DNA of 36,563 nt from Bacillota bacterium (lineage in GTDB: Bacteria; Bacillota; UBA4882; UBA10575): NCBI GenBank assembly GCA_029782135.1, contig JAKOVI010000152.1, positions 1 to 36,563 on the forward strand. The letters are read 5' to 3'. A program made the translations under genes and the position numbers. Of the stretch, positions 8,240 through 25,126 are shown piece by piece (positions within the stretch are counted from its first letter, which is position 1; every line of letters starts with the position of its first letter). Under the pieces are notes generated by a model. The model was not told where the DNA came from and did not search any database. It was given only the letters and a program-made list of their open reading frames with translations.

Positions 8240-8448
8240 CAAAAAACTCCTTTCTCTTTTTGGATGGTAGACTTTTCGGTGAATTGGTTGTCTTTATTTT
8301 CTGCTTAAATAAAAAAGATCCTTCTGGAAAATTAAAAATCAACCGTCAAAGAAAGGTAGTTGTCCGTAAATTTTTTGTGCAAAAATGTTTAAATTCCTTC
8401 CAGATTGTAAATACTGATCACAAAGGAATATTCTGGGAGGAAAATAAC

Positions 8449-12487: not shown

Positions 12488-12654
12488 GAGGAGATTGTTT
12501 CGCGAAAGACCGGCGCCGCGGTCTTCCAATTAGTTAATTACTATCATATTTTTCTGTGGATTACCAGTAGTATTGACTGTTAACAGGAATTATTTCTGAC
12601 AAACTTTGAAGAATGTACCTTTCTTGGGTTCTATCCGGAGACTCTGAAACAAAT

Positions 12655-16560: not shown

Positions 16561-16589
16561 GAATATTCCTCATCCTCCGGGCATAGAGT
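16561..16589 (+). promoter_or_regulatory. Sigma-E-like sporulation promoter before spoIID
   Basis: GAATATT (16561-16567) fits the sigma-E -35 consensus KMATATT fully. After 14 bases CATAGAGT (16582-16589) matches the -10 CATACAHT at six of eight positions. In B. subtilis spoIID is transcribed by sigma-E in the mother cell. It lies about 40 bases before the spoIID ATG. Confidence 0.65.
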
Positions 16590-16630: not shown

Positions 16631-17578
16631 ATGAAACAGGCCTTATGCGGTCTTTTTCTTTCTTTATTTTTTCTCCTTTTTCTGCTTCCTTTGACCTTGA
16701 GTAAATGCGGACCGGCGCCGCAAGGCATTACCGTCCGCCTTTATCTTAAAGAAGCCAAGAAAGTGATCACCCTTGACCTTGAGGAATATATCATGGGGGT
16801 TGTGGCGGCGGAGATGCCGGCCAATTTTCATCCCGAGGCATTGAAGGCGCAGGCTGTCGCCGCCCGGACGGTAACGGTACGCCGCTTAAAACGCTTTGGC
16901 GGACCGGGTTACCCGGCGGTACCGGGAGCGGATCTCAGCGACGATGTTAATGACTCGCAAGCCTGGTTAAGCAAGCAGCAGCTAATCGTGAAATGGGGAT
17001 TCATAAATTTCCTTGGCAACTGGCGCAAGATCGCCGAAGCGGTGGAAGTAACGCGCGGCCAGATCCTTACTTACCAAGGGCAACCGATTGATGCGGTTTA
17101 TCATTCGACCAGCGGCCCGCGGACGGAGGCTTCCGAAGCAGTCTGGGGTGTTGCCCTTCCCTATCTGCGCAGTGTCGAATGCCGGTTTGATCAACATTCG
17201 CCCAAATATAGCCAGGAACAAGCCTTCACTTTAAGCGAGGTCCAGTCCCGACTGCAACTGGGGAAGGTTAGCCCCGCTTCGGCCGGGCGCCCCTTTGTCC
17301 AGATCCTGACCCAGACCGGAAGCGGACGGGTGGAGAGTATCCGCCTGGGCGATCAGGTCTTTTCCGGAACGGAACTCCGCCGGCGGCTGGGCTTAAACTC
17401 CACGTATTTTCAATGCCGGCACGATGGTGAGCGGCTTATATTCAAAACCACCGGTTACGGTCATGGGGTCGGGCTTTGTCAATATGGGGCCGACGGCCTC
17501 GCCAAACAGGGCCGGGACTACCGGCAGATTTTAACTTACTATTACCAAGGGGTACAGCTGAGCAAATTGGCGCCTTGA
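16631..17578 (+). CDS. spoIID: Stage II sporulation protein D, lytic transglycosylase
   Basis: A 315-aa SpoIID/LytB-family protein. SpoIID is a mother-cell lytic transglycosylase that, with SpoIIM and SpoIIP, thins the septal peptidoglycan so that the forespore can be engulfed. After an N-terminal membrane or signal segment (about 3-24) comes LEEYIMGVVAAEMPANFHPE with the catalytic glutamate E61. ALKAQAVAARTV, HSTSGPRTE and GYGHGVGLCQYGADGLA, conserved SpoIID blocks, follow. Length is close to B. subtilis SpoIID. CGGAGG precedes ATG 16631. A sigma-E-like promoter and its own terminator make it a single-gene unit, followed by spoIIQ. Confidence 0.94.
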   Translation: MKQALCGLFLSLFFLLFLLPLTLSKCGPAPQGITVRLYLKEAKKVITLDLEEYIMGVVAAEMPANFHPEALKAQAVAARTVTVRRLKRFGGPGYPAVPGADLSDDVNDSQAWLSKQQLIVKWGFINFLGNWRKIAEAVEVTRGQILTYQGQPIDAVYHSTSGPRTEASEAVWGVALPYLRSVECRFDQHSPKYSQEQAFTLSEVQSRLQLGKVSPASAGRPFVQILTQTGSGRVESIRLGDQVFSGTELRRRLGLNSTYFQCRHDGERLIFKTTGYGHGVGLCQYGADGLAKQGRDYRQILTYYYQGVQLSKLAP

Positions 17579-17655: not shown

Positions 17656-17828
17656 ATGGCACGGTGAGAGCATTTCCCGCCCCATATTCAGCAAGTATAC
17701 CTCTGGAAATGGAACAAAATTAAGAGGGCTGCCCCTTGCCTCAGGATAAAAAAGGAACAACTGGGAAAACTATCTACAAATCTACAGACCAATGGTCATT
17801 GCTTTGTAACCTGAAGAGGGGTGTGAAA

Positions 17829-18578
17829 ATGAATTTATTCACCATAGGTAAAATGAAGCTCGAAAAGATCTGGGAACAAGGCGGCGCCGGGGTCAAAAAG
17901 TTCTGTGGGCAAGTGATCCACGGCGGCCTTCAGTTTTACCGCAAAAGACGGTTATTGGTGCAGGTCGTCAGCTTTCTCTGCTTGGTCGCGGTTGGTTGGG
18001 TGATTGCCTTCCAACCATGGTTCCAAAAGCAATCTGTCCCTTTGACCGTACCAGAAGCGGAGATTGAGCCGGTCACCCTTTTGACGGAGAAGGTCCTGAC
18101 GCTCCAAAAGGAACTGGCGGAGCTTCGTAAGCAGATCCCGCCGGCGGCGGTACCCGCCAGAAAAGAAGAGGTAAAGGAGTTTTTGTCTTTAAAGTTAACC
18201 CCGCCGGTGCGCGGTGAGGTTGTCCGGCGGAGCGCTTGGGAAAAACGCTATACGGAATGGCGGTATCACCCGGGGGTCGATCTGACTGCGCCGGCCGGTA
18301 CCGCAGTCTTAGCCTGTGCCCCCGGGGTAGTGCAGGATATTAAGGCCGACCCTGTTTTGGGAAGAGTGATCCTCATCGACCATGGACAGGAATGGCAGTC
18401 GCTTTATGGCCATCTCTCCACCGTCCACGTAGTATCGGGGCAGAAGGTTGAAGCAGGGGCGGTTTTGGGACAAGTCTCCGTCTCCACCTGTGGGCCGGAA
18501 CCCGGGATTCACTTCGAACTCCGCCACCAGAACCGTTTGGTTGATCCCCTGGCGATGCTGGGAATCAAAGATGAGTGA
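17829..18578 (+). CDS. spoIIQ: SpoIIQ-like membrane-anchored M23 (LytM) protein
   Basis: A 249-aa protein with one membrane helix (about 41-61), a short coiled-coil-like stretch (about 84-102) and a LytM domain (about 130-240). SpoIIQ is the forespore partner of SpoIIIAH and holds the engulfing membranes together. Position between spoIID and spoIIID supports the name. The metal-site residues H147 and D151 (HPGVD) and H195 (YGHLS) are present, as is H228, but the first histidine of the usual HxH motif is G226. Catalysis is therefore doubtful. ATG 17829 was chosen over a TTG at 17736 because GAGGGGTG precedes it and the membrane anchor is then well placed. In B. subtilis the gene is sigma-F dependent; I could not find a convincing sigma-F promoter. 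Confidence 0.8.
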   Translation: MNLFTIGKMKLEKIWEQGGAGVKKFCGQVIHGGLQFYRKRRLLVQVVSFLCLVAVGWVIAFQPWFQKQSVPLTVPEAEIEPVTLLTEKVLTLQKELAELRKQIPPAAVPARKEEVKEFLSLKLTPPVRGEVVRRSAWEKRYTEWRYHPGVDLTAPAGTAVLACAPGVVQDIKADPVLGRVILIDHGQEWQSLYGHLSTVHVVSGQKVEAGAVLGQVSVSTCGPEPGIHFELRHQNRLVDPLAMLGIKDE

Positions 18579-18673
18579 AGTCCTTTAGACTTGCCACCAC
18601 TATACTTGATTACGCACGAACTGTTTCTCTTATAGCTGGTGCGAATAATGCTAGACTGGCGTTTTTTAGCCGG

Positions 18674-18708
18674 GGCCGAATGGTGTTTCCGGAGAACACC
18701 ATTCGGCC
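18674..18708. repeat. Perfect 14-bp inverted repeat in the spoIIQ-spoIIID gap
   Basis: GGCCGAATGGTGTT and AACACCATTCGGCC flank the seven-base loop TCCGGAG. No T run follows, so it is not an ordinary terminator. It lies in a 390-base gap (18579-18968) in which I find no credible gene; the end of the gap holds the spoIIID promoter. Possibly a structured RNA, or a remnant of an element. Confidence 0.6.
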
Positions 18709-18908
18709 TCCGCGGTAAGTGTAACGGGATGACTAACGGCTTGTGCTTGCCCCGGTCGGCTGATGAAAAGGACTGCTTGGGAACCAATGAGCAACGCAGC
18801 TATCCACGGCTAAGCGCACGGCCGTCTACAATCTGGCGAATAAATAAGCTGCTCCTTACCGATCCTTGCTCCGGCTGCCACGGGTGACGATTTGGAAAAA
18901 GGGTCAGG

Positions 18909-18937
18909 TTATATTGTCACGCTCCCACCCATATAAT
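18909..18937 (+). promoter_or_regulatory. Sigma-E-like promoter of spoIIID
   Basis: TTATATT (18909-18915) matches the sigma-E -35 KMATATT at six of seven. After 14 bases CATATAAT (18930-18937) matches CATACAHT at seven of eight. The spoIIID GTG is 31 bases downstream. B. subtilis spoIIID is sigma-E dependent. The box also resembles a sigma-A -10, but no TTGACA is placed for it. Confidence 0.7.
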
Positions 18938-18968
18938 TTAGTGATTAAAGCAGGGAGAGGGTGGGGGA

Positions 18969-19259
18969 GTGAAAGACCATATTCAGAAAAGAGTGCTTGA
19001 CCTTAGTAGGTTTATTATTAGAGAGAAAGCCACTGTGCGGCAAGCCGCCGGTTATTTCGGAGTAAGCAAGAGCACTGTCCATAAAGATGTCACAGAGAGG
19101 CTGCCGGGGATCAATAAGGTGCTGGCCAAAGAAGTAAAAAGGGTATTAGAAACAAACAAAGCCGAGCGTCATATCAGAGGCGGGGAAGCAACACGCCGGA
19201 AATACCAGACAAAGCTAGAAAAAAGGGAGAAAAAAGGAGGATATTCCAAAATAGTATAG
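18969..19259 (+). CDS. spoIIID: Sporulation transcription factor SpoIIID
   Basis: A 96-aa mother-cell DNA-binding protein that activates or represses many sigma-E genes and helps to switch on sigma-K. The helix-turn-helix TVRQAAGYFGVSKSTVHKDV (about residues 22-41), the following TERLPGINKVLAKEV and the basic RHIRGGEATRRKYQ match the family almost block for block. Length agrees with the B. subtilis protein (93 aa). GTG start at 18969; the upstream GGGAGAGGGTGGGGG supplies the ribosome site. The next gene, mbl, follows by 44 bases, as in Bacillus. Confidence 0.96.
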   Translation: MKDHIQKRVLDLSRFIIREKATVRQAAGYFGVSKSTVHKDVTERLPGINKVLAKEVKRVLETNKAERHIRGGEATRRKYQTKLEKREKKGGYSKIV

Positions 19260-19303
19260 AAATTAATGGTAGTTCTTAATTTACTCCGTGAGGGGGAACA
19301 GGC

Positions 19304-20320
19304 ATGCTGAATCTTTCCTGCGATATTGGAATTGACCTGGGAACGGCTAACATACTGGTTTATGTACGGGGTAAAGGAATCATGGTCCGTGAACCTTCAG
19401 TGGTAGCGCTGGATAAAGAGACGGGAAAGATCCTTGCGGTGGGGGAGGAAGCCCGGCAGATGATCGGGCGGACTCCGGGGAATATCATTGCCGTCCGGCC
19501 GTTGAAGGACGGCGTAATTGCCGATTATGACGTCACAGAAACGATGCTCAAATACTTTATTGAGAAAGTCAGCCCGAAACCGCGACTGTTCCGCCCACAG
19601 GTTGTTGTCTGTATCCCTTCCGGGGTCACCAGTGTGGAAAAAAGGGCCGTTTTGGAAGCGGCCATGCAAGCCGGGGCAAAGAACACCTATCTGATTGAAG
19701 AACCGATGGCGGCCGCGGTCGGCGCCGGGATTGACATCTATGAAGCCAGCGGGAACATGGTGGTTGATGTCGGCGGGGGGACCACCGACATTGCCGTGAT
19801 TTCGTTGGGTGGAATCGTGATCAGTCAGTCCTTACGGATCGGCGGCGACAAGTTTGATGAGGCCATTATCAGGTATATCAAAAAGATGTACAATCTCCAG
19901 ATTGGCGAACGGACAGCCGAGGAGGTTAAGATCCAAATTGGTTCGGCCTATCCGGTCGAGGAAGGGCGGACGATGGAGATCCGGGGAAGAGATTTGGTTT
20001 CCGGCCTCCCCCGGACGATTACATTTACCTCGGCTGAATCTTTCCAGGCGATGGCCGAGCCGATTAACAGCGTAATCGACGGGATCAAAGCAGTCCTTGA
20101 GAAGACACCGCCGGAACTGGCGGCCGACATTCATGACAAGGGGATCACCTTAAGCGGAGGCGGGGCTTTGCTGGATGGCTTCACAAAACTATTAAGTGAA
20201 GAGTTACGGGTGCCGATACATCTAGCAGAAGACCCACTCTCCTGTGTTGTCTTAGGCACCGGCAAGATCCTCGAGAATATCGATAAAAGCAACTTGATTG
20301 TCGGGAAGCGTTCCGTCTAA
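19304..20320 (+). CDS. mbl: MreB-family actin, Mbl type
   Basis: A 338-aa bacterial actin that forms membrane-associated filaments and guides lateral cell-wall synthesis. Phosphate-1 motif DIGIDLGTANILVYV is at the N-terminus. VGEEARQMIGRTPGNIIAVR and PLKDGVIADYDVTE are MreB-family hallmarks, phosphate-2 is VVDVGGGTTDIAVIS, and the adenosine motif is LSGGGALLDG. The place right after spoIIID and before the rod genes is that of mbl in B. subtilis, so I use that name; by sequence alone it could be any MreB paralogue. ATG 19304 follows GAGGGGG. Confidence 0.92.
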   Translation: MLNLSCDIGIDLGTANILVYVRGKGIMVREPSVVALDKETGKILAVGEEARQMIGRTPGNIIAVRPLKDGVIADYDVTETMLKYFIEKVSPKPRLFRPQVVVCIPSGVTSVEKRAVLEAAMQAGAKNTYLIEEPMAAAVGAGIDIYEASGNMVVDVGGGTTDIAVISLGGIVISQSLRIGGDKFDEAIIRYIKKMYNLQIGERTAEEVKIQIGSAYPVEEGRTMEIRGRDLVSGLPRTITFTSAESFQAMAEPINSVIDGIKAVLEKTPPELAADIHDKGITLSGGGALLDGFTKLLSEELRVPIHLAEDPLSCVVLGTGKILENIDKSNLIVGKRSV

Positions 20321-20348
20321 TCGAAGGTTACATACTTTTTTCAAGCAG

Positions 20349-20383
20349 GGCAGGGGGTTTCTTCGCTGCCTTTTTATTTTTTT
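20349..20383 (+). terminator. Terminator between mbl and flgF
   Basis: GGCAG pairs with CTGCC over a 12-base loop, followed by TTTTTATTTTTTT. It should separate the spoIIID-mbl unit from the flagellar unit, although readthrough is possible. Confidence 0.7.
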
Positions 20384-22028: not shown

Positions 22029-22076
22029 TAAACTTTAGGAGCGGTGGAACTGAGTAAACTCCCTTGGGTGGTACGG

Positions 22077-23042
22077 ATGAAAAAGGTAAAGCTTTTGGTT
22101 TGTCTTCTCTGGTGCGGCTGGCTCGTGTTTGGCTTCTCTTCAGCCGGGCGTGCGGAGCAGGAAAAGATGGTCATAACGGTTCCGGCGGAGATCGAAGTGG
22201 CGGCGGAGAAAGTCTATTTGGGCCAGATTGCCCTCCTGGAAGGAGTTCCGCCGGGGGTCCGGGAACAGTTGGACCAGATCTACTTGGGACCGGCCCCGCG
22301 TTATGCGGAAACAACCTGGCTGTACCGGACCAATCTCCAATATGCGCTTGACCGTTCGGGGTTTAGTGGCAAATATGAACTCCAAATGCCGGCCAAAGTG
22401 AAAGTTACTCGCACCGGCCAGCCTTTGACGATGGAGATGTTGCAGGCGGCGATGGAGGCTTATATCACGGAAAAGGCCTCCCCGTACTGGACGGAGTGGC
22501 GGCTTGAACCCAACCGGCTGGCTGAACGGATTATTCCCCAAGGGAAACTTGAGATCCGGCCGGATGGTGAACTGCAAATCAAACCTGGACTGCTCACAGC
22601 CCGTTTACGGATTATCGTTGACGGGAAGGTCTTTACGACCATCCCGGTGACCGGCCGGCTGTTTATCCAGGCGCCGGTCTATATCAGTGCGAAACGCTTG
22701 GCGAGGCATGAGGTACTGACCGCCGACAGCCTGCGCCGTGCGATCCAGGAATTGAAGACCGGACAGGAAATCATCACCCCGCTCGCGCTTGAGCAGTTCC
22801 GGACGGTCCGGGAAATCCCGGCCGGGCGGGTGCTTTCCGTTACGGACCTGCAACCGGTTCCGCTTGTGGAGAAAGGGAGTAAAGTCCGTTTGCTCTTTGA
22901 ACAGCAATCGATCCGGTTGGAACTGTATGTCCAAGCGGAAGAGGACGGTTGGCTTGGCGATCAGATTATCGTGACGAATCCCGGAAGTAATCGCCAATTA
23001 AAGGCTACGGTGATCGGACCGGGCCTGGTGGAGGTGGAGTAA
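22077..23042 (+). CDS. flgA: Flagellar P-ring assembly chaperone FlgA
   Basis: A 321-aa secreted protein with signal peptide MKKVKLLVCLLWCGWLVFGF and a C-terminal SAF-like FlgA domain: VYISAKRLARHEVLTADSLR, REIPAGRVLSVTDLQPVPLV, KGSKVRLLFE and NPGSNRQLKATVIGPG. FlgA is the periplasmic chaperone for polymerising FlgI into the P ring. ATG 22077 was chosen because it starts directly with a typical signal peptide and has GGTGG five bases upstream; a GTG at 22044 (11 residues longer) has AGGAG too close. It overlaps nothing and flgH starts one base after its stop. In monoderm Bacillota FlgA of this type is absent. Confidence 0.88.
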   Translation: MKKVKLLVCLLWCGWLVFGFSSAGRAEQEKMVITVPAEIEVAAEKVYLGQIALLEGVPPGVREQLDQIYLGPAPRYAETTWLYRTNLQYALDRSGFSGKYELQMPAKVKVTRTGQPLTMEMLQAAMEAYITEKASPYWTEWRLEPNRLAERIIPQGKLEIRPDGELQIKPGLLTARLRIIVDGKVFTTIPVTGRLFIQAPVYISAKRLARHEVLTADSLRRAIQELKTGQEIITPLALEQFRTVREIPAGRVLSVTDLQPVPLVEKGSKVRLLFEQQSIRLELYVQAEEDGWLGDQIIVTNPGSNRQLKATVIGPGLVEVE

Positions 23043-23043
23043 A

Positions 23044-23616
23044 ATGAGGCGTAAGTTCTGCCTTTTGCTTATATTATTGTTCTTAATTTTCCCGTCAACC
23101 ATGACGGCCAACTCGCTCTGGACGGAGCGGAGCGGTTCCTACTTTATTAAACCGGTGCGCCGGTTTGCCGTCGGCGAGTTGTTGACGATCATCATTTCCG
23201 AACAGGCGTCGGCCACTTCGCGGACCGGGGCCAATACCGGTGAAGAGAGTTCGTTGGTGGTCGGTCCCGGCGCCGGTGTTTTGACGAACATTCTCCCTTA
23301 TTTGCAGGCATCGGTGGAGAATAACTACGGCGCGTCGGCCGGTACCAATAAAACCGGCAGTTTAAAAGCGCAGTTGACCGTCAGAATTGTCGCGGTTGAT
23401 GAACATGGCAATCTCAGCTTCGAAGGAAGTAAAGAGATCAAAGTGAACGAAGATTTACAGAAACTAACCTTTGTCGGGACGGTGCGGTCGGAAGATGTGC
23501 GGCCGGATAATACGGTTTATTCGACTTATGTCGCGGATGCGCGCATCGATTATCTCGGCAATGATCACGCCACGAAAAAGGGCCTGCTCACCAGGGCTAT
23601 TGACTGGTTGTTCTAA
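23044..23616 (+). CDS. flgH: Flagellar L-ring protein FlgH
   Basis: A 190-aa protein that forms the L ring, the bushing of the rod in the outer membrane. The family blocks NSLWTERSGSYF, RRFAVGELLTIIISEQASA, LKAQLTVRIVAVDEHGNLSF, GSKEIKVNEDLQKLTFVGTV and VRSEDVRPDNTVYSTYVADA are all clear. The signal peptide (MRRKFCLLLILLFLIFPSTM, cleavage near TA-N) has no cysteine at the cleavage site, whereas E. coli FlgH is a lipoprotein; the only early cysteine is C6. The mature protein therefore seems not to be lipidated. The start follows the flgA stop by one base, with GGTGGAGGTGGAG as ribosome site. Confidence 0.95.
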   Translation: MRRKFCLLLILLFLIFPSTMTANSLWTERSGSYFIKPVRRFAVGELLTIIISEQASATSRTGANTGEESSLVVGPGAGVLTNILPYLQASVENNYGASAGTNKTGSLKAQLTVRIVAVDEHGNLSFEGSKEIKVNEDLQKLTFVGTVRSEDVRPDNTVYSTYVADARIDYLGNDHATKKGLLTRAIDWLF

Positions 23617-23635
23617 GAGGCGAGGAGTGGTTGGC

Positions 23636-24751
23636 TTGTTGAAGAGAAAGGGGCTTTTTCTCCTTAGCTTTCTATTGGTGCTCATCTTGAGTGCGCAAGT
23701 TCGCCCGGCGGTTGCCCAAGAGGGTGCGCTGACCGCCCGGATTAAGGATCTGGCGCGTTTACAGGAAGACCGTGCGAATCAACTGACCGGTTTCGGGCTG
23801 GTGGTAGGTCTGAACGGGACCGGCGACCAGCAGGGCTACGCGGTGGAGATGGTCCAAAATTTCCTGGCCCATCACGGTTTTGTCTCAAACGATCCGCGGA
23901 TCAATTTACGCGTGCGGAACGCCGCTGCGGTTGCGCTCTCCGCCACTTTACCCCCGTACCGCCGGAGCGGTGACACCATCGAGGTGACCGTCTCTTCCCT
24001 GGGTGATGCGAAGAGCCTGCAAGGGGGAGTGTTGCTGCAATCGCCTTTAACCGGCGCCGACGGGAAAGTTTACGCGGTGGCGCAGGGACCGGTGGTGGTC
24101 AGTGCTTCTCCGGCCACCGGAAACAGAGGCAACCGGCAAACCGTTAACCAGCCGACGGTTGCGCTTGTCCAGGCGATCGTAGAACGGGAAGTGCCGGTTG
24201 AACGGGAGGAGCACAATGTTTTACGGTGGGTGTTGTTTGAACCCGATTTTTCGACCGCCAGTATGATGGCGCAAGCGATTAACAAGTATTGGGGGGCGGA
24301 GATTGCTTTCCCTGAGAACAAGGCAGACATACGGGTTGAGATCCCGGAGGAGTACCGGCTGAATCCGGTGGAGTTTATTGCCGCACTTGAAACGATACCG
24401 GTCACCCGGGATCATGTTGCCAAAGTTATTGTTAACCCGCGGGCGGGGACGGTCGTCTTTGATGGCAAAGTCCGGATTGCCCCGGTGGCGGTGACACGGG
24501 GGAATATTACCGTCAACGTCAGTAACCAGCCGGGGGTTTCCCAACCCCAGCCGCAATCCGGCGGGCAGGTGGCGGGAAATACACCGGAGGCCCCGGACCA
24601 GGGCCCGCTGGTCGCGCTGACGGCCGGGACAACCCTGGAAGAGATGGTGAGAGCCCTTAATGCAGTTGGCGCCACCCCGCAAGAGATTATCAATCTTATT
24701 ATTGCCATTGAAGAGGCTGGCGCCTTGTATGGAATCCTGGAGATCAGATAA
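23636..24751 (+). CDS. flgI: Flagellar P-ring protein FlgI
   Basis: A 371-aa periplasmic protein that forms the P ring around the rod. After a signal peptide ending RPAVA-Q come the family blocks ARIKDLARLQEDRANQLTGF, GLVVGLNGTGDQQ, NAAAVALSATLPPYRRSGD, IEVTVSSLGDAKSLQGGVLL and VIVNPRAGTVVFDGKVRI. The C-terminal LEEMVRALNAVGATPQEIIN is also typical. TTG 23636 is preferred because AGGAG lies eight bases upstream; the longer in-frame extension would run back through flgH. A proline/glutamine-rich insert near residues 308-330 lies where other FlgI proteins are variable. Confidence 0.95.
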   Translation: MLKRKGLFLLSFLLVLILSAQVRPAVAQEGALTARIKDLARLQEDRANQLTGFGLVVGLNGTGDQQGYAVEMVQNFLAHHGFVSNDPRINLRVRNAAAVALSATLPPYRRSGDTIEVTVSSLGDAKSLQGGVLLQSPLTGADGKVYAVAQGPVVVSASPATGNRGNRQTVNQPTVALVQAIVEREVPVEREEHNVLRWVLFEPDFSTASMMAQAINKYWGAEIAFPENKADIRVEIPEEYRLNPVEFIAALETIPVTRDHVAKVIVNPRAGTVVFDGKVRIAPVAVTRGNITVNVSNQPGVSQPQPQSGGQVAGNTPEAPDQGPLVALTAGTTLEEMVRALNAVGATPQEIINLIIAIEEAGALYGILEIR

Positions 24752-24838
24752 AGATAAACCTGCCAATAACGATGGCGTTGTTGGCGATGACCGCACTACG
24801 GACAACGCCGATTGTCGAAATAGAGGAGCGAAAGCACG

Positions 24839-25126
24839 ATGGAGATGAAAGTCAATCCGGTTCCTTTTTCCGGCCGGACGGTAACTTCACAACCGGTCAA
24901 AGAAGACCAGCAATTAAAAGCAAAGTGCCGGGAGTTTGAAGCAATTTTACTGAAACAACTGGTGGAGGCGATGCAAGGGGAGACCGGGCTTTTTGGCCAG
25001 GGGCTGCAGGGTGATTATTTCCGTAGTCTCTTTGCGGAGGAAATGGCAAAGGAACTGGCGAAAGATCCGGGGATGGGTTTGGCGGAGAGCCTTTACCGGG
25101 CGTTAATGGCGACCCGGCAAGACTAG
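24839..25126 (+). CDS. flgJ: Flagellar rod-binding protein, FlgJ N-terminal domain only
   Basis: A 95-aa protein equal to the rod-capping domain of FlgJ: KCREFEAILLKQLVEAMQ, GDYFRSLFAEEMAKELA and GMGLAESLYRAL. It helps the rod to polymerise. The C-terminal muramidase domain of gammaproteobacterial FlgJ is missing, as in many other phyla where a separate enzyme cuts the wall. GAGGAGC precedes ATG 24839. Last gene of the flagellar series. Confidence 0.88.
   Translation: MEMKVNPVPFSGRTVTSQPVKEDQQLKAKCREFEAILLKQLVEAMQGETGLFGQGLQGDYFRSLFAEEMAKELAKDPGMGLAESLYRALMATRQD

Follow-up and report, generated by a model that had tools for sequence, protein, structure and literature searches.

Conservation of a probable sigma-E promoter upstream of spoIIID in a Bacillota genome and its relatives

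The analyzed sequence (the window) is a stretch of 36,563 nucleotides (nt) from a Bacillota bacterium, and represents one contig (JAKOVI010000152.1) of a 2.38-megabase (Mb) genome in 163 contigs (GCA_029782135.1). The element under study is a putative promoter of the sigma-E type at positions 18909-18937, upstream of a gene identified as spoIIID by its match to TIGR02844 (132.8 bits, cut-off 111.5), with PF12116 also matched. The end of the -10 element and the GTG start codon (18969) are 31 nt apart, and transcripts starting in the predicted region would carry a leader of approximately 22-26 nt. The site and the gene behind it comprise the following features:

18909-18915, plus strand: predicted -35 element TTATATT, with the ATA core at 18911-18913, 16 bases before CATA
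18916-18929, plus strand: spacer of 14 bases
18930-18937, plus strand: predicted -10 element CATATAAT, with TATAAT embedded at 18932-18937
18943-18947, plus strand: predicted transcription start region, approximately 6-10 nt after the -10 element
18953-18968, plus strand: ribosome-binding region GGGAGAGGGTGGGGGA
18969-19259, plus strand: spoIIID, 96 amino acids (aa), GTG start (TIGR02844, PF12116)

Promoters of the sigma-E type share the consensus KMATATT at -35 and CATACAMT at -10. The letters, coordinates and 14-base spacer given in the preliminary description of the window were all correct on re-reading, and a recount against this consensus also gave 13 matches in 15 positions. The same description had noted an identical spacer at a second element, located before spoIID, and both spacers are indeed of 14 bases:

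16561-16589: sigma-E-type site of spoIID, GAATATT-N14-CATAGAGT; many relatives carry a similar site upstream of this gene

Sites with at least 13 of 15 matches (spacers of 13-15 bases, both strands) occurred three times in the window, whereas 40 first-order Markov resamplings averaged 0.6. By arithmetic, the latter rate corresponds to a chance of approximately 0.0008 that such a site falls on the correct strand within a given stretch of 100 nt. Besides the spoIID and spoIIID sites, the third was found at 8433 on the minus strand, without evident role. A score of 13/15 is no proof by itself, since the site at 8433 reaches it as well.

Conservation of the element was evaluated in spoIIID loci from other genomes. 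The gene was searched in 41 genomes and found in 39, and 38 upstream regions were read (G015 and G018 gave no match, and G028, with only a weak fragment, was dropped). A further 80 loci, the best 80 of 547, were added, and the removal of 10 loci with identical upstream DNA over 60 base pairs (bp) reduced the resulting 118 to 108 distinct ones, 15 within the family and 93 outside it. In the 15 family genomes, all eight columns of the -10 element were invariant, while the -35 element showed a mean commonest-letter frequency of 0.895 (4/7 columns invariant) and the spacer one of 0.79 (5/14 columns invariant). The same measure was 0.843 for the ribosome-binding stretch (18955-18968), 0.627 for the third codon positions of spoIIID, 0.60 over the 18 columns just upstream and 0.61 over 181 columns further upstream. 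Outside the family, patterns were counted in the promoter region and in four shifted control regions (n = 91-93). ATA-N15-17-CATA was present in 24/93 promoter regions and ATA-N16-CATA in 13/93 (0-1 in controls in both cases), and CATAYA in 57/93 (0-2 in controls). CATA alone, found in 91/93 promoter regions vs. 17-68 in controls, was uninformative because 68/93 coding-sequence controls contain it, whereas the longer patterns do discriminate. Moreover, 46 of the 57 CATAYA occurrences were located 36-45 nt upstream of the start codon; in two genomes (G020 and G022) the best site lay farther off, approximately 135 nt upstream of spoIIID.

In many relatives, though not in every case, CATA-type sites 13-14 bases from an A/T-rich -35 element were also found before spoIIIAA, spoIVA, spoIID and yabP, their -35 element and the right half of their -10 element varying by gene. 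An unweighted matrix was built from 34 sites of spoIIIAA, spoIVA and yabP from related genomes, with no spoIIID or spoIID sequence included. Their selection relied on regular expressions presupposing the general sigma-E form, which yielded 35 sites (13/18 spoIIIAA, 15/19 spoIVA and 7/17 yabP regions); the spoIVA site of G006, with a 13-base spacer, was left out, and the spoIVA region of the analyzed genome itself gave no training site. The spoIIID site obtained the top matrix score of the window (20.71, with a runner-up of 17.23 at 12525), a value reached in 0/20 Markov resamplings, while the spoIID site ranked ninth (11.31).

These results bear on the possibility that the element is a chance match and that spoIIID is read only by read-through from upstream genes. 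Such a reading may draw on the 0.6 matches expected per window, and on the fact that no plus-strand terminator was listed from the spoIIQ-like gene upstream to spoIIID, yet it does not fit with a site kept in 15/15 family genomes despite diverged flanks, with CATAYA at a similar distance from the start codon in most of its occurrences outside the family, and ranked first by a matrix derived from other genes. We regard it as extremely improbable. The main weight for the predicted spoIIID promoter comes from conservation and from this matrix.

With respect to the sigma factor involved, the genome encodes SigE (TIGR02835, 407 bits, over the cut-off), SigK (TIGR02846, 331.9 bits) and SigH (over its profile cut-off). 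SigE carries GISQSY where SigK carries GISRSY, and in our own reading the glutamine (Gln) of this motif would be equivalent to the one that reads the -35 element. In published work, a -35 element with ATA is associated with Gln in SigE, and one with AC is associated with arginine in SigK (PMC3789822). The site combines a CATA-type -10 element, ATA at N16, a SigE with Gln encoded in the same genome and a gene of the sigma-E regulon downstream, and positions 18909-18937 very probably constitute the sigma-E promoter of spoIIID.

The published C. difficile promoter offers a close comparison: a sigma-E start, described "as observed in B. subtilis", was mapped at spoIIID with ATA-N16-CATATATA, and a sigE mutant showed spoIIID expression reduced 25- and 800-fold (PMC3789822). 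Both promoters share the ATA-N16-CATATA layout, the gene, and a SigE whose -35-reading residue is Gln, but the -10 element ends in TA in C. difficile and in AT in the window, and the former promoter was mapped and genetically tested while the latter is predicted. In B. subtilis, a sigma-E promoter is located upstream of usd and spoIIID, and serves mbl as well during sporulation (PMC4474612). The sigma-E promoter before spoIIID is the feature in common, whereas the usd leader frame is that of B. subtilis; no usd-type reading frame was found between promoter and spoIIID in the window, where the short distance from the -10 element to the start codon leaves no room for it. The sigma-E-type promoter first proposed in the preliminary description is supported by conservation, by the matrix from other genes, by the genome-encoded SigE and by the C. 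difficile promoter. These data indicate that this Firmicute lineage retains the spoIIID switch described for the mother cell of B. subtilis and C. difficile, and they illustrate how conservation can serve to check a promoter proposed from sequence letters alone. The element is an already understood kind of promoter in its known place.

Several observations weigh against this assignment. In C. perfringens, spoIIID is described as not being under sigma-E (PMC3789822). Outside the family, 69/93 loci had no ATA-N15-17-CATA pair in the tested stretch (up to 98 bp), so that the -35 element is much less constant there than the -10 element. A search of the whole genome (2.38 Mb) with KMATATT-N14-CATAYAMT, at one mismatch or less, gave four matches vs. 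one for the reversed-pattern control, and only the match at spoIIID precedes a clear sigma-E gene; one of the remaining three precedes a gene resembling spoVT by eye, and two precede genes without evident sporulation role. In the analyzed genome, the sites of spoIIIAA, spoIVA and yabP score just 11 of 15 each against the Y-relaxed consensus (13 for spoIID), and further positions within those 450-bp regions reach 10-11, so that the credit given to these three sites comes from their likeness between aligned relatives and not from their scores. Finally, CATATAAT contains a perfect sigma-A -10 element (TATAAT).

The last point raises the question of a vegetative sigma-A promoter, composed of TTATAT, 17 bases and TATAAT, the latter being retained in 15/15 family genomes. 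However, TTATAT matches TTGACA at 3/6 positions, below the minimum of 4/6, and was not listed by the sigma-70 scan. Outside the family TATAAT was found in 8/93 promoter regions, close to the 1-7 found in controls, while the far more frequent CATAYA includes a C that sigma-A does not need, and the gene downstream is a sporulation regulator. A sigma-A promoter is, on balance, very unlikely. Use by sigma-K, alone or shared with sigma-E, was considered as well, given that the P2 promoter of C. difficile sigK, assigned to sigma-K, has CATATAAT (PMC3789822). The AC that goes with sigma-K is nevertheless absent 15-18 bases before CATA at the spoIIID site, and SigK acts later than SpoIIID in the known cascade (PMC3789822), which makes a role of sigma-K at this promoter very unlikely.

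If sigma-E is the factor involved, RNA polymerase carrying SigE would, after formation of the sporulation septum, read ATA (-35) and CATA (-10) in the mother cell and start transcription near 18943-18947, giving a spoIIID mRNA with a short leader. Possible read-through into mbl, as in B. subtilis, would end at a probable terminator at 20347-20383. SpoIIID would then adjust the sigma-E regulon and help to switch on sigK, the role attributed to it in the literature; compartment and timing would presumably be those of the mother cell in this organism too.

No notable fold was found in the spoIIID leader. The SpoIIID box has the form WWRRACARNY, and no box with at least 9/10 matches was present in the 120 nt upstream of spoIIID in 13/15 family genomes; the two lone matches (G012 and G003) lay at the far end of this stretch and were mutually unlike. 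A SpoIIID autoregulation site at the spoIIID promoter was discarded, as no conserved box was found among the 15 family genomes. In contrast, at the spoIVA sites scanned (G001, G002 and G007) a SpoIIID-box-like sequence, TAGGACAAAA (9/10), absent at the spoIIID site, lies over the -35 element, which agrees with SpoIIID being a repressor of spoIVA in B. subtilis (PMC517825). Two other features were observed by eye in the upstream regions of spoIIID. In G004, an inserted GC-rich hairpin separates the promoter from the ribosome-binding site. In five Desulfosporosinus/Sulfobacillus loci (L058, L064, L072, L096 and L100), a terminator-like hairpin with a T-run is found upstream of spoIIID, ending approximately at the expected -35 element, so that terminator and promoter seem to overlap.

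A second predicted promoter was found at the other end of spoIIID:

19236-19262, plus strand: GGAGGATAT-N11-ATAGAAA, a predicted promoter of the sigma-H type that overlaps the 3' end of spoIIID and is directed towards mbl

The last spoIIID codons, with the -35 block, were invariant over AAAGGAGGATATTCC at the DNA level in 15/15 family genomes, third positions included, and other classes showed related blocks where spoIIID ends or after it; the version of the element in G003, G008 and G010 was GGAGGATAT-N11-GTAGAAT. The sigma-H consensus is given as RNAGGAWWW and RNNGAATWW (PMC8510167). Compared with RNAGGAWWW, N11-12 and RNNGAAT, the element scored 15/16 in the window and 15 or 16/16 in 15/15 family genomes. 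Within 170 bp, a best score of at least 15/16 was obtained in 15/15 family loci and in 50/91 loci outside the family, a count that takes the best match anywhere in this stretch, so that some of the 50 are not at the aligned block; 2/93 outside loci were dropped for having too little DNA. In three control regions the corresponding values were 0/15 and 0-3 of 90-91. Outside the family, a score of 15 was reached in 53/73 loci with mbl after spoIIID vs. 4/18 loci without it, although the two groups were not searched over equal lengths. Within the window itself, 15/16 matches were near chance (6, compared with 3.6 on average over 30 Markov resamplings), and the mbl site is for this reason credible only through its conservation.

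In the whole genome, the pattern AGGAWWW-N11/12-RNAGAAW gave 33 matches, compared with 11 for a reversed control. Among 15 chosen matches, one precedes Spo0A (TIGR02875, 314.7 bits), others precede genes resembling obg, fusA and yidC by eye, and several fall within open frames. For C. difficile, published sigma-H promoters include those of spo0A and fusA1 (PMC7438776). In a limited literature search, restricted to open-access papers, no description of mbl as a sigma-H-controlled gene was found. The element before mbl in B. subtilis, P2, is described as a sigma-A promoter (PMC4474612), whereas that of the window resembles sigma-H. We lean slightly towards a view of spoIIID-mbl as an old two-promoter sporulation cassette, with sigma-E for spoIIID in the mother cell and sigma-H for mbl at the onset of sporulation, in which the sigma-H arrangement would be ancestral in many Firmicutes and the sigma-A P2 of B. 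subtilis derived. The predicted mbl promoter is a better lead than the spoIIID promoter: if true, a conserved sigma-H-type promoter at this position would link a gene of the actin-like cytoskeleton with the sporulation decision.

The neighbouring genes and the terminator are the following:

16631-17578: spoIID, upstream of spoIIID (TIGR02870, over the cut-off)
17736-18578: spoIIQ-like gene for an M23 peptidase, upstream of spoIIID, far below the cut-off of the SpoIIQ model
19304-20320, plus strand: mbl (MreB/Mbl family; PF06723, 494.9 bits), the next gene after spoIIID
20347-20383, plus strand: probable intrinsic terminator after mbl and before flgF, with a 7-bp stem (20347-20353/20366-20372) and a T-rich tail
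22044-25126: genes for the FlgA chaperone, the FlgH L-ring and FlgI P-ring proteins and rod-binding genes, after mbl-flgF-flgG

The probable terminator had a folding energy of -12.6 kcal/mol (z -3.06), and 2/200 shuffles folded as well; it was not listed by the terminator scan, which covered loops of 3-8. At the same position, G003, G008 and G010 showed a stem of other letters (by eye), no stem was found in the aligned stretch after mbl in G004, and G012 has no DNA there. Genes flgF and flgG lie downstream, after mbl, and read-through into the flagellar genes was set aside on account of this probable terminator. Judging from the presence of FlgA, FlgH and FlgI, this spore-former may possess an outer membrane.

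Other observations were made elsewhere in the window. In the gap between the spoIIQ-like gene and spoIIID, a strong 19-bp inverted repeat without a T-tail was found at 18669-18713 (-33.4 kcal/mol, z -5.59), with no second copy detected in the genome. The second-best sigma-E matrix match, TCCAATT-N13-CATATTTT, is located at 12525-12552 on the plus strand, and is followed by no plus-strand open reading frame of at least 60 aa starting before 13552. A cobalamin riboswitch (127.7 bits) was identified at 779-954 on the minus strand.
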